IMG/VR virus record: IMGVR_UViG_3300009419_000078
Coordinates: 1 to 26,158 of that record
DNA length: 26,158 bases
Direction: 5' to 3' (one strand)
Source: a virus
Position numbers and translations under genes: made by a program. Of this stretch, positions 4,211-26,158 are shown piece by piece; position 1 is the stretch's first letter, and the number at the start of each line of letters is the position of its first letter. The notes under the pieces were generated by a model. It was not told the origin of the DNA. It searched no databases and saw nothing but the letters and a program-made list of their open reading frames with translations.

Positions 4211-4753
4211 TCACCAATCAACCATCACCATATTACCATTCCATATCATTATATTGCCTGAATTAAAATCTAAATCTAAATCTAATTCCGGAATATTAGT
4301 TTTGTTTATATCTCGCTGTAAAGCCCGTAAAAAATTAACTAGCTTTTGACTAGTATCTCTAGCTCCGTCATTATCTAAAAATTCAAAAATACTAACTTCG
4401 CCTCCTTGAGATCTAGCATATTGAGCAAATTGTTTCATGAATTTATCAATTGTATTAGTATCTGCTGTAGTTAATTTTTTTGCATTTGCCATTATATACA
4501 TATGTTGTTGGTCGTCGACATAGTAAATTGGAATAAAAGTCGTAAATTCAGTCCATCGTCCAACAATAGTAGTAGCCACCTCAAATTCATCACGTTCTTG
4601 TGTAATTTTAAAACAACGATCTTCACCATTTATTTCGTAAACACGTCCATTATCTCCCGCACCGATAAATTTAAACTGTTTATTTTTAATTTTATCTAAT
4701 AGCCGGGTTAAATCCGTATCTACCATTTCTAATAATGATTTTAATCGTATCAT
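4211..4753 (-). CDS. Minimal protein-kinase-like protein ending at the DFG-equivalent Asp
   Basis: A 180-residue protein with the N-lobe and catalytic-loop signatures of the protein kinase fold: glycine-rich loop GAGDNGRVYE (31-40), a β3-type lysine in CFKIT (Lys49), a catalytic-loop-like D162-x-x-x-x-N167 (LDFNSGNIMIW), then MVMVDW, where Asp179 would be the metal-binding DFG Asp. The chain ends one residue later, so there is no activation segment or C-terminal lobe, and a canonical HRD is absent. It may be a small non-canonical kinase/phosphotransferase or a pseudokinase. The N-terminus (MIRLKSLLEM) is a short helix with L-L-E at 7-9, a possible prohead-protease-type leader. The start is supported by AAAGGG, which lies in the end of the preceding gene four bases away. 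Fold assignment is moderate; substrate unknown. Confidence 0.62.
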   Translation of the reverse strand: MIRLKSLLEMVDTDLTRLLDKIKNKQFKFIGAGDNGRVYEINGEDRCFKITQERDEFEVATTIVGRWTEFTTFIPIYYVDDQQHMYIMANAKKLTTADTNTIDKFMKQFAQYARSQGGEVSIFEFLDNDGARDTSQKLVNFLRALQRDINKTNIPELDLDLDFNSGNIMIWNGNMVMVDW

Positions 4754-15818: not shown

Positions 15819-15836
15819 AGTATTATATTCCTTTTA

Positions 15837-16265
15837 TTAAACTACTAGTTGTCCTTGATTATCTAGTGATATTCCAATCTGTTGTTCCAGATACCCCGAT
15901 GAAAAAGTAATAGTTATCGTTATTTGATGATTTAAGTTAGGGTCATCATCAGCTGTTAATACATTGATATCTATTAATGTTATATACGGTAGCCACTGAC
16001 TAACAGGGGCTGTTATTGCGTCAATAACATCTTGTTTTCGATCTTCATTATTTGGTTCGAAAATAATATTTAATAAATTGGTACCATACGTTGGAGAATT
16101 ATATCGTTCGCCAATTCGCGTTAATAATAAATTTTTTAAATTATTTAATGCTTGGTTGTCAGAATCGCGGATTGAATCAAATACACCTGGCCTATCAAAT
16201 GATATTGACACGCCTAGGGCAATATCTGGATTATCAGGTGACGCTACTTGAATTTGATATCCCAC
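15837..16265 (-). CDS. 25: Baseplate wedge protein, T4 gp25-like
   Basis: A 142-residue member of the gp25/lysozyme-like wedge family (T4 gp25 is 132 residues), a conserved part of contractile baseplates. Key pattern: LLTRIGERYNSPTYGTNLLNIIFEPN, then a helix and VSQWLPYITLIDINV, followed by two edge strands (HQITITITFSSGYLEQQIGI). The start is GTG at 16265, preceded by AAAAAAGGATAAT; no in-frame ATG lies nearby that would keep the conserved N-terminus. It is 6 bp downstream of the 172-residue gene. Confidence 0.9.
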   Translation of the reverse strand: MGYQIQVASPDNPDIALGVSISFDRPGVFDSIRDSDNQALNNLKNLLLTRIGERYNSPTYGTNLLNIIFEPNNEDRKQDVIDAITAPVSQWLPYITLIDINVLTADDDPNLNHQITITITFSSGYLEQQIGISLDNQGQLVV

Positions 16266-16271
16266 GTTACA

Positions 16272-16790
16272 TTATCCTTTTTTATTATTTATTGCTTTCA
16301 TTAATTGTGAATAATCTCGAGTCATTGCCTTTGCTACTTCTGGGGCAACTTCATATGTTTTACCTGTTTCTGGGTCTTCCATTACTTTAGGAGCAGATGC
16401 TGTTGAGTTATTCGTATTTTGTCGCATCATTCCAAATCCACGAGCATCATTTGACGTCATATGAATATCATCCATTCCTTCATTCATAAGATCTGCAAAA
16501 CTATTCATTGCGCCTGGCTGTTGTTCTGATAATGCATCTGTTTCATTTAAGATGTTAGCCCATTTATTTTCCGTAAACTGTACGCGTTTCTTTTCTGGTG
16601 CTATTTGTTTAGGTCTATTATTAACCAAATTACTGTTTGTTTTAGGCTTATTATTAACTATCGGCTGTGTCGTCGCAGTTATTTCATTGATTGTAGATTG
16701 TAACCCTTCGCGAAGAATCTCTGTTAATTCTTCTTTAATAACTTGTCGTACGGCTACTTTAAGTGCTTTTATTAATGTTTTTGAATCCAT
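16272..16790 (-). CDS. Unknown protein next to gp25, helical N-terminus and disordered middle
   Basis: 172 residues, no named family. The first 35 residues are a charged amphipathic helix (IKALKVAVRQVIKEELTEIL); then follows an Asn/Pro/Lys-rich low-complexity linker (about 42-72), FTENKWANILNETD, and a C-terminal helix (YEVAPEVAKAMTRDYSQLMKAI). This design (helix, flexible linker, helix) suits a scaffold, chaperone or assembly protein. It is read from a TATTTATA site only 14 bp upstream, without a Shine-Dalgarno sequence, and lies first in the run leading into gp25 and gp6. Confidence 0.6.
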   Translation of the reverse strand: MDSKTLIKALKVAVRQVIKEELTEILREGLQSTINEITATTQPIVNNKPKTNSNLVNNRPKQIAPEKKRVQFTENKWANILNETDALSEQQPGAMNSFADLMNEGMDDIHMTSNDARGFGMMRQNTNNSTASAPKVMEDPETGKTYEVAPEVAKAMTRDYSQLMKAINNKKG

Positions 16791-16803
16791 ATGATAATTT
16801 TAT

Positions 16804-16811
16804 TATAAATA
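16804..16811 (-). promoter_or_regulatory. Candidate late promoter (TATTTATA) for the 172-residue/gp25/gp6 run
   Basis: TATTTATA in TTATATTTATAATAAAAT on the coding strand, 14 bp before the ATG at 16790. The short distance implies a very short or nearly leaderless mRNA if this is the promoter. Confidence 0.52.
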
Positions 16812-16817
16812 TAAGTA

Positions 16818-17648
16818 TTAGTAATTTACGGCTGTTGGCCATTCTGAATCTGAGAGTTTAGGTCCATATATGATGTTGTTTGTACGATCTATGAAATAGT
16901 CTCCGGATTTTCCAATATCATTCGCCGGATATCCTTGTCCTGTAATTACTTTGCTAGGTGCTTCTAATAGATCTAATAACGAGCGTTGTTGTTGTTCTAG
17001 GTCACTTAATAATTGTTGCCTGGATTGAATATCATCCGCTGATACATTGATCAATTGATAAAATTCAGACTCCGATTGAATATTAACTAGTTCAACATTA
17101 CCTGAATCTATAGTAGTATTGCGAAAATTTGCAAACACATCATCAAGTGTTTCTGTATTACAAATTGATGATAACATGTTGATTACTGGTGCTAATAGCG
17201 CAGATATCAGTGTAATAGAACCATTTACAATTGTAATAATAATTCCTGCTTGTTTTAAACATGCAATAATATTAGCAATCAATTGATTTTGTACTGCGAT
17301 AGCTTGACCCACAGCTGGAGGCGCTGGTACTGGCGTTAATAATTGAGCATTTAATGCAACAGCCGCAGTCGTTGCAATTTTCTTAAGTATCGGTATTATA
17401 ATATTTAATATAGTTAAAACGCCTTGAATTTGATCAAGTAACGTTTGTAGTTGTAATAAATCTTGTTTTAAATCTCGAATCCTAGGATCAGCGCAATTGA
17501 TATTTTTTGGTAGTTTATTTGTTTTTGATATTGCATCCGTAACTTTTTCATTTATTTTTGAAATACTTTTATTTAGTGCGGACTGTAATTTATTTATTGC
17601 GGAACCTGGTTTATTAACAATAATATCAAATGGTGGTGCAACTGCCAT
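16818..17648 (-). CDS. Hydrophobic baseplate/tail structural protein with fibre-like C-terminus
   Basis: 276 residues. Residues 13-75 are helical (NKLQSALNKSISKINEKV). Two long hydrophobic stretches follow (about 75-100 and 120-160, rich in Ile/Leu/Ala), unusual for a soluble tail protein. A Gln-rich coiled coil (about 208-230) leads to a C-terminal segment, GKSGDYFIDRTNNIIYGPK then WP, the motif used at the ends of many phage fibre and spike proteins. It lies directly downstream of the spike/hub gene (TAACATG junction), so it may associate with the hub or tail tip. A membrane-contact role during DNA ejection is an inference from the hydrophobic segments. Confidence 0.62.
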   Translation of the reverse strand: MAVAPPFDIIVNKPGSAINKLQSALNKSISKINEKVTDAISKTNKLPKNINCADPRIRDLKQDLLQLQTLLDQIQGVLTILNIIIPILKKIATTAAVALNAQLLTPVPAPPAVGQAIAVQNQLIANIIACLKQAGIIITIVNGSITLISALLAPVINMLSSICNTETLDDVFANFRNTTIDSGNVELVNIQSESEFYQLINVSADDIQSRQQLLSDLEQQQRSLLDLLEAPSKVITGQGYPANDIGKSGDYFIDRTNNIIYGPKLSDSEWPTAVNY

Positions 17649-17649
17649 G

Positions 17650-18639
17650 TTATGTTTTCTTTATTTTATATTTTGTACTATTCAATGATTGTAATTTCGC
17701 AAGTGCGGTTTGTAGTTGTGCAGAACCATTTGTTACGCAAGGACCTCCTGGGCTTGTCGATCCTGCTGTAATTGCATTAATAAGTTCTTGTATAATTTCA
17801 ATTAATACATTACCGTGAGGTATTGGTTCCTCTGCAGAATCACTACCAATTAGAACATCGCCATCTGTATTTAAAACAATACCTTCAATTGAATCTAAAA
17901 CGATAATATCTGTTTTTGCACGTATCATGATGCGGTCTGCACTTCCTATAAGTTGAGACCCGTTAAATTTAGAATTAAAACATTCTAAATTATTAGATAA
18001 TACCATCGGTACCGTTTGTGTGCTAGTTAAATATAATGATGATGCATCCTGTTCTATATTTTCAACAACGTATTTTCTATTCGTGCTTGTATATGTAGTA
18101 TTTGATAATATAATAATAGGATCAGTTACAGTTTTCCCGGTCCATGTCGGTTGAACATCATAATCGGTAGTTGGAATTGTACTACTAAATCGTAAACTGT
18201 TTCCAAATCGGCCTTCTAATAATATATCTCCACGATATGGTTGCAATATCGGACTAGATCGTTGAATAAAATTATTATCCGGCGTAAATATTTCTGAATT
18301 AATTGGTAATATATTAGAATTAATTCCGGAAGTTATACCTACCGGTGGAAAATAATACCATTGATGAGTTCGTTTATCAACTGATGTGGTAAAATCATAT
18401 CCTCGGAATACTAATACATTTTCACCTATTATAGGTATTTGTTTTATATTTGGAAATGCCGGCTTAACATTCTGAAGATTAATAGTATTATTATTTTCTC
18501 GGACTAATATTGTTAAACAAAATAAATTATTTGAATCGGATGAATCAGATTGTCGTTTATATGTATTAGTTGTTTTTGTTGTATTCTGAACAACTTCACC
18601 AAAATAAAATTTTACATAATCACTATCTGTATTATACAT
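17650..18639 (-). CDS. Baseplate hub/central spike protein, gp5-like, without lysozyme domain
   Basis: 329 residues. An OB-fold-like domain is visible at about 65-105 (IPIIGENVLVFRGYDF, HQWYYFPPVGI). The motif QPYRGDILLEGRFGNSLRFSS (134-152) is a conserved hub/spike signature in T4-like phages. After it, short repeating strands (SADRIMIRAKTDIIVLDSIEGIVLNTDGDVLIG, about 233-265) look like a β-helix needle. T4 gp5 (575 residues) carries a lysozyme between OB and needle; here that space has no lysozyme residues, so any cell-wall cleavage must come from another protein. The ATG overlaps the end of the upstream gene by 8 bp. Confidence 0.8.
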   Translation of the reverse strand: MYNTDSDYVKFYFGEVVQNTTKTTNTYKRQSDSSDSNNLFCLTILVRENNNTINLQNVKPAFPNIKQIPIIGENVLVFRGYDFTTSVDKRTHQWYYFPPVGITSGINSNILPINSEIFTPDNNFIQRSSPILQPYRGDILLEGRFGNSLRFSSTIPTTDYDVQPTWTGKTVTDPIIILSNTTYTSTNRKYVVENIEQDASSLYLTSTQTVPMVLSNNLECFNSKFNGSQLIGSADRIMIRAKTDIIVLDSIEGIVLNTDGDVLIGSDSAEEPIPHGNVLIEIIQELINAITAGSTSPGGPCVTNGSAQLQTALAKLQSLNSTKYKIKKT

Positions 18640-19066
18640 TTGATGCCTTATCTATTTTTTGTTTTGCTAACGTAATTTTTTGTTGCAATTCGGTATCATT
18701 ATGTAAAATATCATCTAATTCATCATGCAATTCAGCTGATAATGTTTGTTCAGCAACATTTAACAATTGTTGTTTTTCTTCATCACTTAATAACCCATCG
18801 GCACCTGATATAGTTTGTTTTGTTGAAATATACCGCTGAACTATGGCTGTTAATTTTACGAGATGATCGTCATTTTTAACAGCAACATCTAGATATTCCT
18901 TGATCAGTGGTACAATGATTGTAGCATCAGACGCATTTTTTATTAGCGGCTGTAATTGGGCAATAAGTTGATTAATTTGTCGGTCTTTCTTTTTACTATT
19001 ATGATAAACATCAGACATTAAGTCAGCAAACGAAGTACCTTTAAATAGTTCATCATTTTTATCCAT
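18632..19066 (-). CDS. Conserved-looking helical protein, unknown (144 residues)
   Basis: Almost entirely α-helical and charged. The N-terminal FKGTSFADLMSDVYHNSKKKDRQI and the central IIVPLIKEYLDVAVKNDDHLVKL are patterns I recall from a small protein found in related environmental phages, but no function is assigned there. It lies between the late sigma gene and the spike gene, overlapping the latter by 8 bp. Its Shine-Dalgarno sequence AAAGGA forms one arm of a short inverted repeat with a late-type promoter in the loop. It may be a baseplate assembly factor, by position only. Confidence 0.6.
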   Translation of the reverse strand: MDKNDELFKGTSFADLMSDVYHNSKKKDRQINQLIAQLQPLIKNASDATIIVPLIKEYLDVAVKNDDHLVKLTAIVQRYISTKQTISGADGLLSDEEKQQLLNVAEQTLSAELHDELDDILHNDTELQQKITLAKQKIDKASNV

Positions 19067-19082
19067 AACACAAATCCTTTAA

Positions 19083-19090
19083 TATAAATA
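19083..19090 (-). promoter_or_regulatory. Candidate late promoter (TATTTATA) between CCTTT and AAAGG arms
   Basis: TATTTATA on the coding strand, 17 bp before the ATG at 19066 and directly after the gp55-like stop codon. It is flanked by CCTTT (end of the sigma gene) and AAAGG (the Shine-Dalgarno sequence of the next gene), so read-through RNA can pair across it. Confidence 0.6.
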
Positions 19091-19792
19091 TCAAAAAGGC
19101 AGATTTACGAAATTTAATAGTTCATATTCACGGAACTTGTCGACATAAATTTGTTTTAATGTTTTAACAACTCGAGTAATATTATTTGTTTCTAAACCCG
19201 TACGTTCTCGTATAAAAATATATAATGCTTTTTTATTAAAATCTTCAATGTTTTCTCGAGTCTCAAAAATATGAAGTACTGAGTCTGCGACATGAATATC
19301 AATCGGACTATTAAATATATAATTTAGATTAGCATGACAATATTCAATATACGCATCCATAAATTCATGCAATGTTTCTCGCATATCATCATTATGAATT
19401 TCTGTAACAATATTTCGCTGATCGTCAATATTCAATTCTATCCCGGTAGATTTTAATTTTGCATATGCCTTTTGATTTTCGGCAATTAAATAATTAAATG
19501 ATGTCCTCGTATAATAAGAATATGCTTTACCCGCTAATGGATTAAATTTATTTAACCGTTCTGTCAAATATGTAACTAAATCAGTTTGTAAATCTACAAA
19601 TGATGAATCAATATATGTTGGTTTAATTTTATTAATTAAATTTTCAGCCATTTTCATTAATGCTGGATATATAAATCGTCTATAGATTTTCTCTCGCAAT
19701 GCTGGAGATTCGGCCGTTCGATTATATGCAGCAATTGCTAAATCTGTTATTTTGGTAAAGTATATATTACTTTTTTTCTTCGCTCTCGCCAT
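19091..19792 (-). CDS. 55: Late-transcription RNA polymerase sigma factor, T4 gp55-like
   Basis: Homologue of T4 gp55, the small sigma factor that directs host RNA polymerase to late promoters. Typical segments: LREKIYRRFIYPALMKMAENLINKIKPTY, DLQTDLVTYLTERLNKFNP, and GKAYSYYTRTSFNYLIAENQKAY, which carries the sigma region 2-like core. The C-terminal part is helical (ALYIFIRERTGLETNNITRVVKTLKQIY). About 233 residues from the ATG at 19792, longer than T4 gp55 (185). A TTG two codons upstream (19798) is possible but less likely. The start lies inside the upstream membrane-protein gene (26-bp overlap), so translation is probably coupled. The gene's presence fits the nine TATTTATA sites. Confidence 0.87.
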   Translation of the reverse strand: MARAKKKSNIYFTKITDLAIAAYNRTAESPALREKIYRRFIYPALMKMAENLINKIKPTYIDSSFVDLQTDLVTYLTERLNKFNPLAGKAYSYYTRTSFNYLIAENQKAYAKLKSTGIELNIDDQRNIVTEIHNDDMRETLHEFMDAYIEYCHANLNYIFNSPIDIHVADSVLHIFETRENIEDFNKKALYIFIRERTGLETNNITRVVKTLKQIYVDKFREYELLNFVNLPF

Positions 19793-20087
19793 TATCAAAT
19801 TCTGATTTTAATTGTTGTATAACTTCGTTTAGTAATTGGAATGTTGATCCTGCTTCGTCATCTTTTTCAAATGCACCTAATCGGTCTATCTCTTGCATTT
19901 TATCGTAACTTTCAACAATTTTTCCATACATATATTCATTAGTTAATTCTAATGTTTCAATATATTCTAAAATATCCTCAGTATGATCTTGTGTATCAGC
20001 TAATGCTCCAGCTAAGAACCATACTCGATATGCTAGATATGTAGTACTTGTAAATAGTCCGATTGATAATATCAATAATGTTAACAT
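19767..20087 (-). CDS. Small single-pass membrane protein
   Basis: 106 residues from the ATG at 20087, preceded by GGAAG at good spacing and separated from the HD gene's stop by one base. An ATG 24 bases further upstream (20111) lacks a Shine-Dalgarno sequence and overlaps the HD gene, so I prefer 20087. Residues 1-25 form one transmembrane segment (LTLLILSIGLFTSTTYLAY); the remainder is an acidic coiled-coil-like tail ending GESEEKK. Its position between an HD hydrolase and gp55, overlapping gp55, suggests co-expression. A role as a transcription co-activator (like T4 gp33) is unlikely given the membrane segment. Function unknown. Confidence 0.65.
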   Translation of the reverse strand: MLTLLILSIGLFTSTTYLAYRVWFLAGALADTQDHTEDILEYIETLELTNEYMYGKIVESYDKMQEIDRLGAFEKDDEAGSTFQLLNEVIQQLKSEFDNGESEEKK

Positions 20088-20088
20088 G

Positions 20089-20868
20089 TTAATCTTCCAT
20101 TTTAAATGCATTAAATAATTCAGTCAATGTTTTTTCAACATCTGGATTATTTTCAGCTAGGTTTTTCAATCCATTACTTTTTTGAATGCGACTCTTTTCC
20201 GATACTGGATTTGGAGATGTATTTTTATTGTTTCTCCAACGTTCGAATTCAATTGTAGATGCCATATGATCTGCATGATGCAATATAATAGGCAAATTTG
20301 TTTTCAATTTAGATTGTGGAGATCTAGAAACAAAATAAGGTTTATTTGCATCATCATACATCCCATCATGAATTTTAATAGCTTGATATTCTGTCCATGA
20401 CATTTTAATATCATATTCTTGTAGCAACCAAATTGAAAGGTCTGGTACCATTGCAAACGGAATATTTGCATTTGATTTATAAAGTTTCCCTTGATTTTTT
20501 CGATGCCAATCTGATGTTTCGACTTGATAAACTTCATTACCATCGCCCGGGAAACCTGCTTTACCTAAATCATGATGCATTGCTGCAAATAATAATTCTT
20601 CTTCAGTGTATCCAGACATATCGGCTCCCATTACTGTCCAGGTATTATGCAAAGTTAATGCACAATCCATTACTCGAAGTACATGATCAACATATCCTCC
20701 GGCAAATGCATTATGAAAGTGTTCCATGGAAGATGCTGGCATGAATATCAGTCGATCTTCAAATTCATCATACATTTTATTTAATGCATCTTTACGAGTA
20801 GGAAATAAATTATTAACTAGACCGCGATATCTTTCCCAATTGGATTTTATTTTTTCTGCTTCTAACAT
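20089..20868 (-). CDS. HD-domain phosphohydrolase
   Basis: A 259-residue metal-dependent HD hydrolase. Key residues: HFHNAFAGGYVDHVLRV (H52, H62), MHHDLGKAG (H99-D100, the HD pair), IHDG (H167, D168) and ILHHADHMAS (H197, H198, D200, H201). This order fits YfbR/HD-superfamily enzymes that act on nucleotides or nucleic acid ends; phage versions have been linked to dNTP or cyclic/linear nucleotide turnover, but the substrate cannot be read here. The C-terminal 50 residues are helical and charged. The gene follows two small genes in the same direction; no strong Shine-Dalgarno sequence is visible before the ATG at 20868. Confidence 0.85.
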   Translation of the reverse strand: MLEAEKIKSNWERYRGLVNNLFPTRKDALNKMYDEFEDRLIFMPASSMEHFHNAFAGGYVDHVLRVMDCALTLHNTWTVMGADMSGYTEEELLFAAMHHDLGKAGFPGDGNEVYQVETSDWHRKNQGKLYKSNANIPFAMVPDLSIWLLQEYDIKMSWTEYQAIKIHDGMYDDANKPYFVSRSPQSKLKTNLPIILHHADHMASTIEFERWRNNKNTSPNPVSEKSRIQKSNGLKNLAENNPDVEKTLTELFNAFKMED

Positions 20869-20894
20869 ATTTGTTTTATAACAATTATAAAGAA

Positions 20895-21056
20895 TTATTT
20901 GCGTAATTCCAATATTTCACCATTTACTAGCTTAGATGTGCATTCACTACATGTAACTGCAGTTGCCTTTTCATCAACTCGTTGACAAATATTTTTGCAA
21001 TATTTGCATTGTAACCGTTTAAACCCTCGGCCTAAACTTTTAATTGTTTCTTTCAT
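20895..21056 (-). CDS. Small zinc-ribbon protein (53 residues)
   Basis: A short gene read from the ATG at 21056. The protein starts MKETIKSLGRGFKRLQ and contains two Cys pairs: C17-x-x-C20 (CKYC) and C36-x-x-C39 (CSEC), a zinc-ribbon knuckle arrangement, plus Cys24. It ends EILELRK. Such tiny ribbons often bind nucleic acid or RNA polymerase, but there is no direct evidence here. It lies 6 bp after the 59-residue gene and 26 bp before the HD gene, in the same operon. Coding potential is supported by the intact Cys pattern and tight spacing. Confidence 0.7.
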   Translation of the reverse strand: MKETIKSLGRGFKRLQCKYCKNICQRVDEKATAVTCSECTSKLVNGEILELRK

Positions 21057-21062
21057 ATAATA

Positions 21063-21242
21063 TTATTCGCGGTCAATATAATAACGGGCTGAATCTAATT
21101 TCTTCATTGCTCGTAATAGATTATCCATTAATGATGCTTTATCAATTTTGCCTTCTTCTAGGGCTTTACCTGCTGCGCGTACAATTTCGCGCGCATCTTC
21201 AACATCGTCAGTAAGCTTTGCTTTATACTTGTAATGTGCCAT
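21063..21242 (-). CDS. Small helical protein (59 residues), unknown
   Basis: The ATG at 21242 follows AAAGGATC at good spacing. The 59-residue product (MAHYKYKAKL, DDVEDAREIVRAAGKALEEG, MDNLLRAMKKLDSARYYIDRE) is highly helical and charged, and resembles a small conserved protein I recall from environmental T4-like phages. It has no catalytic motif. The late-type octamer sits 49 bp upstream. Function unknown. Confidence 0.65.
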   Translation of the reverse strand: MAHYKYKAKLTDDVEDAREIVRAAGKALEEGKIDKASLMDNLLRAMKKLDSARYYIDRE

Positions 21243-21290
21243 AACTTGATCCTTTATTTAAATTATTATTGTTTATTACTTATTATCTAT

Positions 21291-21298
21291 TATAAATA
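21291..21298 (-). promoter_or_regulatory. Candidate late promoter (TATTTATA) upstream of the 59-residue gene
   Basis: TATTTATA on the minus strand immediately downstream of the UV endonuclease stop codon, 49 bp before the ATG at 21242. It could drive the small genes, HD hydrolase, membrane protein and gp55, which would make gp55 partly self-driven. The greater distance makes it less certain than the others. Confidence 0.45.
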
Positions 21299-21300
21299 TA

Positions 21301-22326
21301 TTATATTAAAATTATTGGTGATTTTTTACAACACTCAACATTGATATTTAATAGTGCTTGCTCTTTTGCTTTGGCTTCAACCATAATATCTAATGCATCA
21401 ACACCATATGTGTTGGGAGTAGTTAAAATATAGTCTGCGTGTGCTGCCTCGCGGATTTTTGTAAATTCTTTGTATTGTTTCTGAAACGTTGGCCACTTAG
21501 GTAAATCTTCCAATGAAATACCATGATGTTCAAACATGCGTTCTATAAGGGTTTGAGCCTCTCTACGACGCGACTCTGAATAATGGGTACATTGGGTTAC
21601 ATTGTGTCGATCCCAAGTCTCTCGTGCTAAAAAGAAGGCTTCCTGTTCGGATAAGTCACCAGTATTGAAAGTGTGGTGCCAATAGTCAAATGTAATCGGA
21701 ATTGCAATTTCTTGATGAAGCATCTCATATAATTCTCGTACGGAATACATGGATGCCTTGTCATCATTTTCAATAACTAGACGGGACTTGCAAGAATCTG
21801 ATAAACGATCCCAATTGCGCAACCATCTTGCAATAGTACCAGGTTTATCATTATAAGTAGCACCTACGTGAATATTAATCTTGTTTTCAAAGCTAGGAGT
21901 AAAACCCATAAGATCAAAGAGTTCAGAATGTCGTTCTAAACTAACAATGCTATTATCAACAACTACAGCATCGGGACTACCTAGAATATGAAAAGGGCCA
22001 GGATGTGTTGTAATGCGATGTCCATGCATTTTTGCATAATCACCTGCAGCACGAAGATGTGCAGCAATTTCTGCAATGCCCGGCAAATCATGTAGCTCGT
22101 AATGATTCCAACGAGGAAACAATTCTGAACCTAAACGAAACAAGCGAATGTCGTGTGCTTCGTTCCATTTTAAGATAGTTATCAAATCTCGAGCATTTGC
22201 TAACGCAATGTCAGATGCTAATTGTAAGCCGCCTTGTTTGAACTTGCGATCAATTAAAGAACGACCCGTACGGATGCCTTGCTGTCCAAGCTCCATATTA
22301 ATACATGCATATCCGGTTCTAATCAT
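21301..22326 (-). CDS. uvdE: UV damage endonuclease (UVDE family)
   Basis: A 341-residue UVDE-family enzyme, a TIM-barrel metal nuclease that nicks 5' of UV photoproducts and abasic sites. The N-terminal RTGYACINMEL and LKWNEAHDIRLFRLGSELFPRW are diagnostic; likely metal ligands include His108 (THPG), His153 (NIHVG), Glu186 (VIEND), Asp214 and His217 (FDYWHHTFN) and His248 (THYSES). Length is usual for the family. GC content is clearly higher than the flanking genes (two sampled 60-bp lines each have 27 G+C, against 11 and 17 in two sampled structural lines), suggesting recent acquisition. It has no visible Shine-Dalgarno sequence. T4 uses a different UV enzyme (DenV). Confidence 0.92.
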   Translation of the reverse strand: MIRTGYACINMELGQQGIRTGRSLIDRKFKQGGLQLASDIALANARDLITILKWNEAHDIRLFRLGSELFPRWNHYELHDLPGIAEIAAHLRAAGDYAKMHGHRITTHPGPFHILGSPDAVVVDNSIVSLERHSELFDLMGFTPSFENKINIHVGATYNDKPGTIARWLRNWDRLSDSCKSRLVIENDDKASMYSVRELYEMLHQEIAIPITFDYWHHTFNTGDLSEQEAFFLARETWDRHNVTQCTHYSESRRREAQTLIERMFEHHGISLEDLPKWPTFQKQYKEFTKIREAAHADYILTTPNTYGVDALDIMVEAKAKEQALLNINVECCKKSPIILI

Positions 22327-22431
22327 AGTATTTTTATATATAATATGAAATTTATCATGTAATTCAAAATATTATGTTAATTTTTTTGCTTATATTTATA
22401 TGAAAGAAGAAACCTTAAAGGAATATAAAAC
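22327..22431. promoter_or_regulatory. Divergent spacer between uvdE and cassette 1
   Basis: A 105-bp AT-rich gap. Its right half (about 22372-22431) copies the plus-strand promoter arm found before cassettes 2 and 3: ATGTTAATTTTTT, GCTTATATTTATATGAAAG and ACCTTAAAGGAAT. The left half, towards uvdE, is unrelated to the corresponding part of the cassette spacers and lacks their 28-bp core, so cassette 1 marks the left border of the array. Confidence 0.65.
22393..22400 (+). promoter_or_regulatory. Candidate late promoter (TATTTATA), cassette 1
   Basis: TATTTATA on the plus strand in CTTATATTTATATGAAAG, 32 bp before the ATG at 22432; followed by the Shine-Dalgarno-like AAAGGAAT. Near-identical copies precede cassettes 2 and 3. 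Confidence 0.68.
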
Positions 22432-23097
22432 ATGAAAAATACATTAGCAGAAAATATGCTTAGATTTGGATCAAAAAACTTGTCTGAGGAAAATCGCAAA
22501 AATTTGAAACAATTAACAGAAGGCGATGCAGTTATAACACCACATTTTAAGCATAACAATGGCGTGATCTATAGAACACCGTTTAAAGACACTGCACAAT
22601 ATAAAATGTTTACAACTCCACCAAAATTAGGTGCTCTCATCGGGCAACAGATAGATCCAAATATAAGTACCTTAGAAAATAATTATTATCTATACGCCGG
22701 CGCAATTCTACAAAAAGTAGCATTAGCTGGCAAGTATAATCCTGCAGATTATAAAACACCCCAAATATTTCGTGACTACATGTTTAATACAAATGATGAA
22801 GCAGTGAATCAACCTGATTGGTATGATAGAATCCTATGTAATACTGGCGGACATGGAAATTCTGTACAGATGGATCTAACTTGGAATAAACTAGGCGATG
22901 ATATTGACGAAGCTGCGGCAACACAATCCACCGGTGCACCGGTACCGGGACAATCGCCGAATCCAAAATTCTTTGCAGGATGGAGTATGATGTTATCGAC
23001 ATTAAATTCAGTGATACCGACACGATTTAATGCAGTTAATTCTGATCCAGGTATATTTTGGAAAAATCCAAGCAACAAAATAGAACTCCACAGTTGA
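22432..23097 (+). CDS. Cassette 1 leader-family protein (candidate packaged/ejected protein)
   Basis: 221 residues. The leader (MKNTLAENMLRFGSKNL, continuing to Glu30) is almost identical to that of cassette 3 (27 of the first 30 residues) and similar to cassette 2. It is a helical, basic segment ending KQLTE, an L-x-E motif like those cut by the T4 prohead protease after capsid targeting; a second L-S-E is at 17-19. Residues about 40-60 (NGVIYRTPFKDTAQYKMF) still align with cassette 3, after which the sequence is unique, with no recognised domain. It ends 16 bp from the facing secreted-protein gene, without a terminator hairpin. AAAGGAAT supports the start. Packaging and ejection are inferences; function of the body unknown. 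Confidence 0.7.
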   Translation: MKNTLAENMLRFGSKNLSEENRKNLKQLTEGDAVITPHFKHNNGVIYRTPFKDTAQYKMFTTPPKLGALIGQQIDPNISTLENNYYLYAGAILQKVALAGKYNPADYKTPQIFRDYMFNTNDEAVNQPDWYDRILCNTGGHGNSVQMDLTWNKLGDDIDEAAATQSTGAPVPGQSPNPKFFAGWSMMLSTLNSVIPTRFNAVNSDPGIFWKNPSNKIELHS

Positions 23098-23113
23098 TGC
23101 TAGTTATTAATAT

Positions 23114-23557
23114 TTAGTCGATATTAGAAGTTAATATTACACTAGTGGCTACGATTGTTTTGGTAAGATTTTCTAATTTACTATAGTATGTATAAGTAAA
23201 CATGTTTAATTTAATATTAAAACAAATTATAGTCGTAAATCTAGTACCAGAACCATACTTATCGCGATCACTAAACGTAATACAAATATCATCTCCAATT
23301 GTTGTAATAGATTTAAATTTTAATATTGAAACAAATACGCCATTATCATAAAAAGTTGATGTTTTACAATCTAGGTCAATTATATAGTAACTAGCCGTTA
23401 ATTCAACTAATCCTATAGAATCCGGAGATGCTATAACAGCTTCACACGTGTTTTTATTTTTTTTAAAAAATGGTTGTGTTTCAGTTACTTTAATAGTAAC
23501 TACTTGGGAAGATGCTACGGTTGAAATAACCAATGCTACAAATACTAACTTTTTCAT
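23114..23557 (-). CDS. Cassette 1 small secreted protein, paralogue family
   Basis: 147 residues with a clear signal peptide: MKKLVFVALVISTVASSQ, a basic start, hydrophobic core and A-S-S-Q end. The mature part begins VVTIKVTETQPF and contains YYIIDLDCKTSTFYDNGVFVS, shared with the cassette 2 partner (24481-24927) and recognisable in the cassette 3 partner. It is β-rich with no catalytic motif and no lipobox cysteine directly after the cleavage site. Likely exported to the periplasm or surface of the infected host; could modify the envelope, block other phages or be a host-derived gene. Translation start has no strong Shine-Dalgarno sequence, unlike the facing gene. Confidence 0.72.
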   Translation of the reverse strand: MKKLVFVALVISTVASSQVVTIKVTETQPFFKKNKNTCEAVIASPDSIGLVELTASYYIIDLDCKTSTFYDNGVFVSILKFKSITTIGDDICITFSDRDKYGSGTRFTTIICFNIKLNMFTYTYYSKLENLTKTIVATSVILTSNID

Positions 23558-23688
23558 GGCTTAATTTTTAAGTGGTTAATTATACTATATAATAAGATAT
23601 ATAATATTATTATCCAACCAGTTTATTAATTAATGTTAATTTTTTTTGCTTATATTTATATGAAAGAAACCTAAAAGGAATAAAAAAT
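23558..23688. repeat. Cassette spacer repeat B (divergent promoter region)
   Basis: 131 bp between divergent genes. The left part holds a 28-bp core (23562-23589, starting TAATTTTTAAGTGG) that is identical at 24933-24960 and 26108-26135; on the minus strand it supplies GTATAAT about 33 bp before the secreted-protein ATG. The middle has ATCCAACCAGT, shared with copy C. The right part holds the plus-strand TATTTATA promoter arm shared with copies A and C. Confidence 0.8.
23653..23660 (+). promoter_or_regulatory. Candidate late promoter (TATTTATA), cassette 2
   Basis: TATTTATA in GCTTATATTTATATGAAAG, 29 bp before the ATG at 23689; followed by AAAAGGAAT as the ribosome binding site. Confidence 0.68.
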
Positions 23689-24411
23689 ATGAATTTAGAA
23701 AAATTAATAGCGAAAAACATGATTCGCTTTGGCACAAAGAATTTAAATGAGGATGTTAATCCACAACTAGTCGGATTGGTAAGCACATATATTCCAGCAA
23801 AAGATTTAACGGCATTGGATAAGATGTTAGCCGCAGCTGCAAAAGCTAATACTCCTCAAGTATTATATGCCGGAACTTATTGTTATTTTGTATGTAATCG
23901 AAATACTGCTCAACCTGATCCTAAGGATCCTACTGCTTATTATAATTATAAAATATCTAGCTATATATTAGGCCCACGTAGATATGGCGATATCTTGTTA
24001 ATAGACTGCGCAATGGCAGACGAAGCTGATACAGGAATGACATATCGCAAAGATGCGAAGCCAAATTTAACGTATCTATCTGATTCAACATTAACACGAG
24101 ATAGTAAATATCCCGGATGGAACAATGCTTGGGTGGGTCGAGTAGATGGCAAATATACTCCTGCAACTGCAGCGGCCGCTGTAAGCAAAAATTTTGCTAA
24201 CCTAGGTACCGCTGCTGGCGCATGGGTTACATCTCAAGCATCAAATAATGCTATGATTAAACAATGGTTAACTAAAGCAACTAATAATCCGGCTACCGTC
24301 ACTGCAGTAAATGCAGCTAAACTTACTACAGGTAATGCTAAATTGTTTTATAGTGGACTTACTCAATCATCGCCGAGCACACAAACTGTACCTCCAGTAA
24401 AGCAACCATAA
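23689..24411 (+). CDS. Cassette 2 leader-family protein (candidate packaged/ejected protein)
   Basis: 240 residues. The leader MNLEKLIAKNMIRFGTKNLNE is a diverged version of the cassette 1/3 leader, keeping the [AK]-x-NM-[IL]-RFG-[ST]-KNL core, and reaches an L-N-E motif at 19-21, nine residues earlier than in the other two. The body is unrelated to cassettes 1 and 3; it is Ala/Thr-rich with VLYAGTYCYFVC, YILGPRRYGDILLIDCA and a Pro-rich end (TVPPVKQP). No domain recognised. A strong intrinsic terminator follows 22 bp after the stop. Expression late and head packaging are inferred from the promoter and leader. Confidence 0.7.
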   Translation: MNLEKLIAKNMIRFGTKNLNEDVNPQLVGLVSTYIPAKDLTALDKMLAAAAKANTPQVLYAGTYCYFVCNRNTAQPDPKDPTAYYNYKISSYILGPRRYGDILLIDCAMADEADTGMTYRKDAKPNLTYLSDSTLTRDSKYPGWNNAWVGRVDGKYTPATAAAAVSKNFANLGTAAGAWVTSQASNNAMIKQWLTKATNNPATVTAVNAAKLTTGNAKLFYSGLTQSSPSTQTVPPVKQP

Positions 24412-24432
24412 TTTAAAAGTAATTAAAGTAGT

Positions 24433-24463
24433 AAAGCCCCTCTGCAAAGAAGGGCTTTTTTAC
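24433..24463 (+). terminator. Intrinsic terminator after cassette 2 plus-strand gene
   Basis: AAAGCCC (24433-24439) pairs with GGGCTTT (24452-24458); inner TCT/AGA pairs extend the stem, and a run of six T follows. The outer AGTAAA/TTTACT flanks are also complementary, so the structure could act weakly on the opposing transcript. Confidence 0.85.
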
Positions 24464-24480
24464 TGGGCTAATATTAAATA

Positions 24481-24927
24481 CTATTTTGTACTAGTAATTA
24501 CGCATTGAGTATTCAATTGAGTTCTAGTGTATCCATTATATGGGTCATACCAAGAATATGAAGATGTTCCTGTTTTTGTATTATAATTAATTTCAGTTTT
24601 CATTGTAAATTCTGGCATATCTATTACATGATCTGTTAACGTAATACGAACGTCTGTATTTGTTTTTATTATTGATTCAAACGGCAATGTAGAAACAAAT
24701 ACACCGTCTAAATAAAATGTTGATGTTTGATCATCTAAATCTAATACATACTCACAATTTGCAGGTTCTTTATACCCAGTCCATTCTGGATTTGCAAGCA
24801 CGGCTTTTGCTGTGGTTTGTTCATATCTAACAAACGGTTGTGTTTGTGTTACTTTAATAGTAACTACTTGGGATGTTGCTACGGTTGCAATAACGGTTGC
24901 TACAAATAATAATGCTAACTTTTTCAT
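24481..24927 (-). CDS. Cassette 2 small secreted protein, paralogue family
   Basis: 148 residues. Signal peptide MKKLALLFVATVIATVATSQ, then VVTIKVTQTQPF, matching the cassette 1 partner almost residue for residue at the mature start. The central CEYVLDLDDQTSTFYLDGVFVS aligns with YYIIDLDCKTSTFYDNGVFVS of that partner; the flanks have diverged. β-rich, with aromatic residues near the C-terminus (SSYSWYDPYNGY). Probably exported; function unknown. It faces the cassette 2 leader gene with the terminator between them and starts divergently from cassette 3. Confidence 0.75.
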   Translation of the reverse strand: MKKLALLFVATVIATVATSQVVTIKVTQTQPFVRYEQTTAKAVLANPEWTGYKEPANCEYVLDLDDQTSTFYLDGVFVSTLPFESIIKTNTDVRITLTDHVIDMPEFTMKTEINYNTKTGTSSYSWYDPYNGYTRTQLNTQCVITSTK

Positions 24928-25061
24928 GTCTCTAATTTTTAAGTGGTTAATTATACTATATTATATGAACTATTAATTGAATATCCAACCAGTATACTAA
25001 TAAATGTTAATTTTTTTTTGTTTATATTTATATGAAAGAAACCTTAAAGGAATATTAAAAT
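24928..25061. repeat. Cassette spacer repeat C (divergent promoter region)
   Basis: 134 bp, built like spacer B: the 28-bp core at 24933-24960, a diverged AT-rich middle, ATCCAACCAGT, then the AATGTTAATTTTTT and TTTATATTTATATGAAAG promoter arm. Conserved ends with a variable middle suggest that both promoter arms, not the whole spacer, are under selection. Confidence 0.8.
25025..25032 (+). promoter_or_regulatory. Candidate late promoter (TATTTATA), cassette 3
   Basis: TATTTATA in GTTTATATTTATATGAAAG, 30 bp before the ATG at 25062; followed by CCTTAAAGGAAT carrying the ribosome binding site. Confidence 0.68.
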
Positions 25062-25634
25062 ATGAAAAATACATTGGCAGAAAATATGCTTCGCTTTGGA
25101 TCAAAAAACTTGACCCGAGAAAATCGAAAAAATTTGAAACAATTAAGTGAATCATTTGCTTCAAAGGATGGTATAACGTATAAGTCTAATTTTAAAGATC
25201 AAGCAATGTTTGATAACTATGTAGCTGGTGCTACCCCTGATCCGAAGACAGACATGTTACAAACAGCAGCCGGTGCTAGTTTTGGTAAACTAGGTGTGAC
25301 TACTAACGTACTTACATCATGTATTTGGCACGCTGCGGCATATGCTGGTACGGTCCCTGCTTATAGTAACATCGGAGCTGCTAAATCGCAAATACAATTG
25401 TTTCAAACAGGAACTAGTCAGTTACCGAATGTACAACGCGTTCATAATCAACTTAAATTGTCAGGCGTGATATCAACGCTTGAAGATACCAAGTGGTGGG
25501 AAACACAAATTGCTGACCCGACTAATCCCAAAGTAAATATTACCAGATGGAATTTATGGATACGTACAAATATTACTCCAAATTGGTCTGCAAAAAAAGC
25601 ACTTGTATTACCTCCAACAACAGGGCCTAAATAA
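25062..25634 (+). CDS. Cassette 3 leader-family protein (candidate packaged/ejected protein)
   Basis: 190 residues. The leader MKNTLAENMLRFGSKNL continues RENRKNLKQLSE (to Glu30), nearly identical to cassette 1 and ending at an L-S-E motif. Similarity to cassette 1 persists in a short block (DGITYKSNFKDQAMF), then stops; the C-terminal 125 residues are unique, with several Trp (TKWWETQ, NLWIRTN, NWSAKK). No domain recognised. A terminator hairpin follows at 25655. AAAGGAAT supports the start. As in the other cassettes, packaging into the head is inferred from leader and promoter. Confidence 0.7.
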   Translation: MKNTLAENMLRFGSKNLTRENRKNLKQLSESFASKDGITYKSNFKDQAMFDNYVAGATPDPKTDMLQTAAGASFGKLGVTTNVLTSCIWHAAAYAGTVPAYSNIGAAKSQIQLFQTGTSQLPNVQRVHNQLKLSGVISTLEDTKWWETQIADPTNPKVNITRWNLWIRTNITPNWSAKKALVLPPTTGPK

Positions 25635-25654
25635 TTTAATATATTATAAGTAGT

Positions 25655-25683
25655 AAAGTCCCTCTGAAAAGACGGGCTTTTTT
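25655..25683 (+). terminator. Intrinsic terminator after cassette 3 plus-strand gene
   Basis: AAAGTCC (25655-25661) pairs with GGGCTTT (25674-25680), one G-U pair, followed by six T in total. It is clearly a copy of the cassette 2 terminator (AGTAAAG, CCTCTG and GGGCTTTTTTACT are shared), so the terminator travels with the cassette. Confidence 0.82.
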
Positions 25684-25707
25684 ACTGTGTCTAAACAATT
25701 ATTATTT

Positions 25708-26103
25708 TTAATTAATTTTTATACTAAATTTTACGAATTCGTAAGAATATTCACCAATTGGATCTTGATCACTTAGCTTAACGGAATTGTTGTTTTTATC
25801 AATAATAAATGCCATAGCTGTTCCTTTATCGTCATAAACTATAGTAATAATATTATTAATTACTGATTTACTTACAATATTGCGAGTAACATTGATATTA
25901 TAATTAGGACATTTATAAACAACTGTACTGTCTTCTAAATTGATAAAATAATAAGAGTCAACATTTTTAAAAGTTCCTGCATTTAAAATACCCGAATCGG
26001 CTATGCGAAATAATATCTTTGTAACATGAATATCAACATGTTGACTAACAGAATTGAAGGCGGTTGATAATACAACTCCTAATACAAATGCTAACTTTTT
26101 CAT
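25708..26103 (-). CDS. Cassette 3 small secreted protein, diverged paralogue
   Basis: 131 residues. Signal peptide MKKLAFVLGVVLSTAFNSVSQ, then HVDIHVTK, a diverged form of the VVTIKVT mature start in cassettes 1 and 2. SYYFINLEDSTVVYK corresponds to their [YV]-x-[IL]-DLD-x-x-TSTFY segment, but the rest has little visible similarity and the protein is shorter. β-rich, no enzyme motif. Export is likely. Its start region is the 28-bp core repeat, so it belongs to the same array despite its divergence. Confidence 0.7.
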   Translation of the reverse strand: MKKLAFVLGVVLSTAFNSVSQHVDIHVTKILFRIADSGILNAGTFKNVDSYYFINLEDSTVVYKCPNYNINVTRNIVSKSVINNIITIVYDDKGTAMAFIIDKNNNSVKLSDQDPIGEYSYEFVKFSIKIN

Positions 26104-26158
26104 GTCTTAATTTTTAAGTGGTTAATTATACTATATAATAAGATATATAATATTAATA
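26104..26158. repeat. Cassette spacer repeat D (cut by window edge)
   Basis: The start of a further spacer: the 28-bp core at 26108-26135, and identity with spacer B through the following ATAATAAGATATATAATATTA segment. A fourth plus-strand leader gene can be predicted just beyond the right edge. Confidence 0.78.

Follow-up and report, generated by a model that had tools for sequence, protein, structure and literature searches.

An exchangeable island of leader genes and convergent exported genes in uncultured T4-like phages

Introduction

The closest described counterparts of the locus analyzed here, an array of two-gene cassettes at the right end of the viral contig IMGVR_UViG_3300009419_000078 (26,158 bases, taken as a whole and referred to as the window), are the T-even phage proteins IPI, IPII, IPIII and Alt (PMC3012670, PMC9026906, PMC9958956). 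T-even internal proteins are highly diverse and only their capsid-targeting sequence (CTS) is conserved (PMC3012670), whereas the T4 protease gp21 cleaves after L/I-X-E; for T4 IPIII, alteration of the Glu in LxE is reported to prevent cleavage while packaging still takes place (PMC9026906). Shared with the window locus are diverse bodies behind a short conserved N-terminal leader with (L/I)xE, predicted late-type expression (judged by motif), a variable gene set and a gp21-type protease in the phage group. However, the leader described here has another sequence and is longer, with about 21 to 30 amino acids (aa) as compared to 10 for IPIII. Furthermore, the genes are usually paired with a convergent exported gene and arranged in tandem arrays with duplicated promoters, and packaging of their products is a prediction.

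Similarities also exist with the head and ejection proteins of SPN3US and phiKZ (PMC5694885, PMC9026906), from which a gp21-related protease removes N-terminal propeptides after Glu and some of which are injected. These propeptides mostly exceed 100 residues, their motif is AxE or S/AxE, i.e. (A/S)xE, and no description of a cassette array with exported partners was found for these phages. The precedent for the exported half is T4 Spackle (gp61.3), which is made early, resides in the periplasm and inhibits the gp5 virion lysozyme of an incoming phage, together with Imm (PMC7677548). The likeness is that of an early phage gene product that is periplasmic and blocks a protein of the incoming virion. 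In the present case, however, many unrelated exported proteins adjoin their presumed partners and inhibition is a presumption; in addition, Spackle is an alpha-helical bundle, whereas the partner family of the window is a predicted beta-barrel.

The observed island, its turnover, the leader motif, the convergent arrangement, the export signals, the two promoter classes and the co-inheritance of bodies and partners form the basis for the proposal that the island is probably an accessory cargo locus similar to that of the T4 internal proteins, in which each cargo gene would travel with an exported partner. The first-pass annotation of the window knew of no named system with such a layout, and no description of paired convergent genes with two promoter classes was found in open-licence papers. 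The cargo half is of a known kind; the pairing of cargo and export looks new.

Results and Discussion

Three cassettes next to uvdE

The window contains three leader genes on the plus strand, starting at 22432, 23689 and 25062 and thus spaced by 1257 and 1373 base pairs (bp), in agreement with the units of roughly 1.26 and 1.37 kb described initially. Each is opposed by a minus-strand gene encoding a signal-peptide protein (23114-23557, 24481-24927 and 25708-26103), which also bears out the earlier description. The conservation of promoters, leaders and spacers stated there is apparent as repeat blocks of 82-97% DNA identity, with E-values down to 2e-28, and as a 29-bp core present in exact copies at 23562, 24933 and 26108, for which a reversed control gave no match. 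These array repeats are far above chance. The features, with distances in nucleotides (nt), are as follows.

21301..22326, minus strand: uvdE (UV endonuclease, PF03851), the conserved left island flank; Pfam E 2e-58, syntenic in relatives.
22392..22399, plus strand: late-type promoter core ATATTTAT of cassette 1, 32 nt 5' of the start codon.
22432..22521, plus strand: leader of cassette 1, MKNTLAENMLRFGSKNLSEENRKNLKQLTE, assigned by [LI]xE enrichment and the leader profile; cleavage is predicted to follow LSE and/or LTE.
22432..23097, plus strand: leader gene of cassette 1, 221 aa, body without homologue.
23114..23557, minus strand: exported partner of cassette 1, 147 aa, signal peptide.
23562..23620, minus strand: promoter region of partner 1, with TTGGAT (complement of 23612-23617) and a downstream AT-rich core; early/host-like class.
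23652..23659, plus strand: late-type promoter core of cassette 2, 29 nt 5' of the start codon.
23689..23751, plus strand: leader of cassette 2, MNLEKLIAKNMIRFGTKNLNE, assigned by the leader profile; candidate cleavage after LNE.
23689..24411, plus strand: leader gene of cassette 2, 240 aa, body without homologue.
24408..24471, plus strand: terminator-like block between the convergent genes of cassette 2, 86% identical to 25631-25694.
24481..24927, minus strand: exported partner of cassette 2, 148 aa, predicted secreted beta-barrel (predicted local distance difference test score, pLDDT, 89.4).
24933..24961, minus strand: copy 2 of the 29-bp core, in the promoter region of partner 2.
25024..25031, plus strand: late-type promoter core of cassette 3, 30 nt 5' of the start codon.
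25062..25151, plus strand: leader of cassette 3, MKNTLAENMLRFGSKNLTRENRKNLKQLSE, assigned by the leader profile and [LI]xE; predicted cleavage after LSE.
25062..25634, plus strand: leader gene of cassette 3, 190 aa, with body relatives in L078, L081 and L097.
25631..25694, plus strand: terminator-like block between the convergent genes of cassette 3, similar to the cassette 2 block.
25708..26103, minus strand: exported partner of cassette 3, 131 aa, signal peptide.
26108..26136, minus strand: copy 3 of the 29-bp core, which lies in the partner 3 promoter region and does not open a fourth cassette.

The first-pass annotation considered the gene bodies strongly different. This holds for genes 1 and 2, for whose bodies the fetched loci contain no homologue; gene 1 also had no tblastn match among 50,697 phage records. 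Gene 3 has three relatives, and genes 1 and 3 have an early segment, G(I/V)xYxxxFKD, in common. Of the terminators noted earlier, the similar stem-loop-like blocks of cassettes 2 and 3 were recovered, but neither was listed by a consensus scanner. A sigma-70 scanner found no excess of matches in the array.

The array had been expected to continue past the right edge of the window, where the core copy at 26108 lies. Contig L025 is 100% identical to positions 15822-26158 and extends 4.16 kb beyond this edge; there, the third minus-strand gene is followed by a short spacer and then by an unrelated conserved gene of 185 aa (MAKKQLVPD...). Since this continuation contains an unrelated gene and no fourth leader, a fourth cassette is ruled out, and the array of the window phage has three units. 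The core at 26108 belongs to the promoter region of the third minus-strand gene.

The leader as a putative capsid-targeting propeptide

A degenerate DNA pattern of the leader core yielded 30 loci, and a profile yielded 54 distinct proteins that have the leader in common, with the consensus AENMLRFGxKNL followed by [LI]xE. This motif is present within about 27 residues after the leader core in 41 of the 54 proteins, as compared to 16.7 +/- 3.0 in shuffled tails; the 54 proteins are not independent, so that the shuffle overstates significance, although most bodies beyond the leader are unrelated. Farther downstream there is no excess of [LI]xE (7 versus 6.3 after shuffling).

Each of the four long relatives in which both genes were looked for (G001, G002, G004 and G005) encodes a gp21-type protease (PF03420) and a gp23 capsid protein (PF07068). 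No protease match was obtained in the partial contig G003, and no head gene was recognized in the window, which is a fragment. In the head proteins of the relatives, [LI]xE is found at the expected cleavage places, namely, SLNE/SLTE in the protease and FFGLTE/FFGLAE in a small head protein, and the capsid protein carries QLVKE followed directly by ASQTG where cleavage would be expected. Because of the [LI]xE enrichment, the gp21-type protease, the [LI]xE motifs in the phages' own head proteins and the T4 precedent, the leader is best read as a putative capsid-targeting propeptide, and the packaging, cleavage and injection of the leader-gene products appear likely. The T4 internal proteins were the nearest analogy named in the first-pass annotation, and both the [LI]xE that follows the leader and the late promoter motif at leader genes (see below) strengthen this choice.

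Several observations weigh against a cargo role. Thirteen of the 54 leaders have no [LI]xE past the core, some carrying just the NLxE of the core itself. The bodies have no recognizable domain, so that neither an action of the cargo nor contact between cargo and partner is indicated, and the sole structure model of a leader body is unusable (pLDDT 41.7). For 36 leader proteins, matches of the bodies in Pfam, PHROGs and NCBIfam were not convincing and had chance-level scores, the T4 internal proteins not being compared directly; homologues of leader bodies or partners with a solved structure were equally unconvincing. Mel-JY01 and immuto, the nearest cultured relatives, both lack the leader. 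This absence, together with the fact that the structural genes of the window are mostly baseplate genes, would suit a signal for another virion part, such as the tail or baseplate, or a regulatory or chaperone-binding tag. Such a role is nevertheless improbable, since the [LI]xE enrichment directly after the leader, the same motif in the phages' head proteins and the gp21-type protease all point to the prohead core. In T4, tail proteins are not known to be gp21 substrates, which also counts against it.

A second, short N-terminal leader, M(I/K)(R/K)LKxLLxE(Q), occurs on many proteins of these phages, including island genes of 400-750 aa. It was found in the L085, L102, L106, L124 and L126 islands as well as at 4211-4753 of the window, and is possibly another capsid-targeting class. 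The island gene at L147:8910-9926 combines the short leader with a peptidoglycan-binding domain (PF01471), which suggests envelope-acting cargo, and that at L152:7749-8192 combines a short-leader-type N-terminus with a SET domain (PF00856), which is unusual in phage.

Turnover of the island in related phages

So that the leader did not bias the sample, uvdE was used to retrieve the loci, which were then read outward; a number of loci selected by the leader complemented this set. The region between uvdE and a gene of the 185-aa type is hypervariable, with about 40 distinct complete islands that contain 0 to 3 leader genes each. Two loci (L150 and L153) are empty between these flanks. The leader genes of L031/L033 lie on the other (3') side of uvdE, corresponding to a relocated island, with six leader genes in G002. 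The exact leader pattern had no match in a scan of bacterial and archaeal genomes, and a genome scan with uvdE revealed no relative.

Natural recombinants permit the exchange to be read at base level. L078 and L081 have 95.7% identical uvdE genes and are distinguished by exactly one cassette of 966 bp. In L078 the leader is hybrid, in that its promoter and first codons correspond to cassette 1 of L081 and the remainder to cassette 2, with the switch within the leader. Another example is that of L086 and L090, which have 97.7% identical uvdE genes and 97-98% identity in both flanks but different islands; their homology stops where the distal partner gene starts and, on the side of uvdE, within the promoter/leader region. 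The pair L105/L106 (uvdE about 97% identical) also has different islands and behaves in the same way. The closest relatives of the window (uvdE 91-92% identical) have only a distant relative of cassette 3 in common with it. As read from these comparisons, recombination inside the leader adds or removes cassettes, and phages that are nearly identical exchange entire islands.

The initial proposal of an expanding, exchangeable gene set is thus supported: cassette number varies at the same locus, one pair of phages differs by a single cassette, and pairs with approximately 97% identical uvdE hold different islands. Linked multicopy arrays, as opposed to unlinked single copies, are common in the relatives, although the window phage has no further leader copy downstream, which goes against that part of the initial expectation. 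The label "effector" given to the cassette genes is an interpretation.

The hybrid junction within the L078 leader and the loss of island-wide homology near conserved promoter/start regions could also be expected if the constant promoter and leader were a DNA-level recombination anchor without any targeting role. However, pairwise codon differences among 87 leader sequences comprise 15367 synonymous and 7751 nonsynonymous changes (about 2:1), with position 3 the most variable; as the differences are mainly synonymous, selection acts on the peptide. In addition, leader genes occur away from the uvdE island in G003-G005. A mere anchor is therefore very improbable.

Two promoter classes

In four relatives, 108 of the 518 genes have the motif ATATTTAT at most 70 nt upstream, in most cases at 20-35 nt from the start, as compared to 9 for its reverse complement, and the genes for tail sheath and portal carry it upstream. 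It precedes 47 of the 53 leader genes, with a usual distance of 25-32 nt, and none of the 40 uvdE genes. A different motif, T[TA]GGA-N13-19-TAnnTT, is found upstream of 38 of the 52 partner genes, 2 of the 53 leader genes and 13 of the 40 uvdE genes, versus 2-4% of shuffled sequences; a similar site precedes the primase gene. We infer that the leader genes are late and the partner genes early/host-like, classes that are defined by motif only. As a point against this division, ATATTTAT is also present in 15 of the 52 partner upstream regions, mostly inside the other motif and farther from the start.

The T[TA]GGA-N13-19-TAnnTT class resembles the Bacteroidota housekeeping promoter. Given this promoter type and the occurrence of signal peptides with SQ/AQ at their end, the host is probably a member of the Bacteroidota. 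The nearest cultured phages as judged by the baseplate gene (43-54% identity) infect Flavobacterium or were recorded from Microcystis.

Several genes of a run at G003:21480-27521 are preceded by TAGGATCC-N-CTTATCTTTAAGTATA; this is probably an early gene cluster.

Exported partners and their pairing with leader genes

A convergent gene follows 45 of the 53 leader genes, as compared to 56 of 647 genes (0.09) across the long relatives. At least 47 of the 52 opposing genes encode a signal peptide or an N-terminal membrane segment, versus 65 of 654 genes (0.10) overall; export was called by a simple rule, and 2 of the 5 misses resemble signal peptides by eye. The description of the minus-strand genes as encoding signal-peptide proteins in the first-pass annotation consequently extends to the relatives, but there they have a promoter class different from that of the leader genes and comprise several unrelated exported families. 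These include CAP, rhomboid, DUF2927 and the window's own family of predicted secreted beta-barrels. The model of the cassette 2 partner is confident, and its structural matches are middling (best Z 9.3, 3.0 A over 96 residues; best Foldseek E 0.0095); they consist of lipocalin-like and other small barrels and are not diagnostic.

In the partner set (alignment A6; L017:1129-1707), one member matches a rhomboid protease domain and others belong to the CAP superfamily, so that the partners may include envelope enzymes. Known defense systems were considered for the partners and rejected, as there were two single weak PADLOC hits that were judged to be chance.

Among 18 pairs of homologous leader bodies from different islands, the partners are homologous as well in 10, as compared to 0.8 in permutations, none of which (5000) reached 10. 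Since homologous bodies keep homologous partners in these 10 of 18 pairs, the cassettes tend to move as pairs, as far as their sequences indicate, although exchange within pairs also occurs. The functional coupling of cargo and partner is accordingly rated here as fairly probable. The evidence on the other side is that the remaining 8 of the 18 pairs do not share a partner and that, among the 10 which do, one is nearly identical by descent (97%), whereas nine have 25-63% body identity, some sharing members, so that several pairs are not independent. Nor does the beta-barrel fold of the window partner give a pointer to function.

These points lead to the alternative that the leader genes encode injected counter-defense proteins of the T4 internal-protein type, whereas the exported genes facing them would be independent accessory genes, for surface masking, proteolysis or envelope change, present in the same island only because its spacers tolerate insertion. 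The lack of relatedness between the CAP, rhomboid, DUF2927 and window beta-barrel families fits this alternative, as do the eight body pairs with nonhomologous partners, the occurrence in some islands of consecutive leader genes without an intervening partner, and the fact that T-even internal proteins act alone (PMC3012670). However, the retention of homologous partners well above the permuted expectation speaks against it, and convergence and export in nearly all cassettes represent more order than independent insertion predicts; this alternative is possible, though on the unlikely side.

Proposed mechanism and relevance

According to the proposed cargo locus with exported partners, the leader protein would be made late and its cleavable N-terminal leader would target it to the prohead core, where the gp21-type protease would remove the leader after [LI]xE; the cargo would then be injected with the DNA and may itself act on the envelope or on host defenses. 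The convergent partner would be produced from its early/host-like promoter and would then either pass through Sec or insert into the membrane; it might protect the infected cell from the cognate cargo of incoming phages or block their entry. Recombination in the shared promoter/leader segments would swap the cargo without any need to rebuild targeting and expression.

For the exported partner, a role as immunity or superinfection-exclusion factor is favored because T4 Spackle is the closest precedent; by this analogy it can be put forward tentatively, and independent envelope functions of the partners are the main rival. Rather doubtful is the more specific idea of every cassette as a matched weapon-and-immunity pair in the competition between phages, in which the virion delivers the cargo and the early partner confers immunity to the cognate cargo of competitors. 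If true, the cassettes could be a swappable attack-and-immunity kit, and island content would define exclusion groups among near-identical phages.

In this locus, a targeting tag similar in kind to that of the T-even phages would underlie modular exchange in a widespread group of uncultured T4-like phages. It provides a catalogue of candidate counter-defense and superinfection proteins as well as a candidate new capsid-targeting leader for protein loading. Elsewhere in the window, a T7-type phage endonuclease I (PF05367) is encoded at 1920-2402, inside a T4-like genome.

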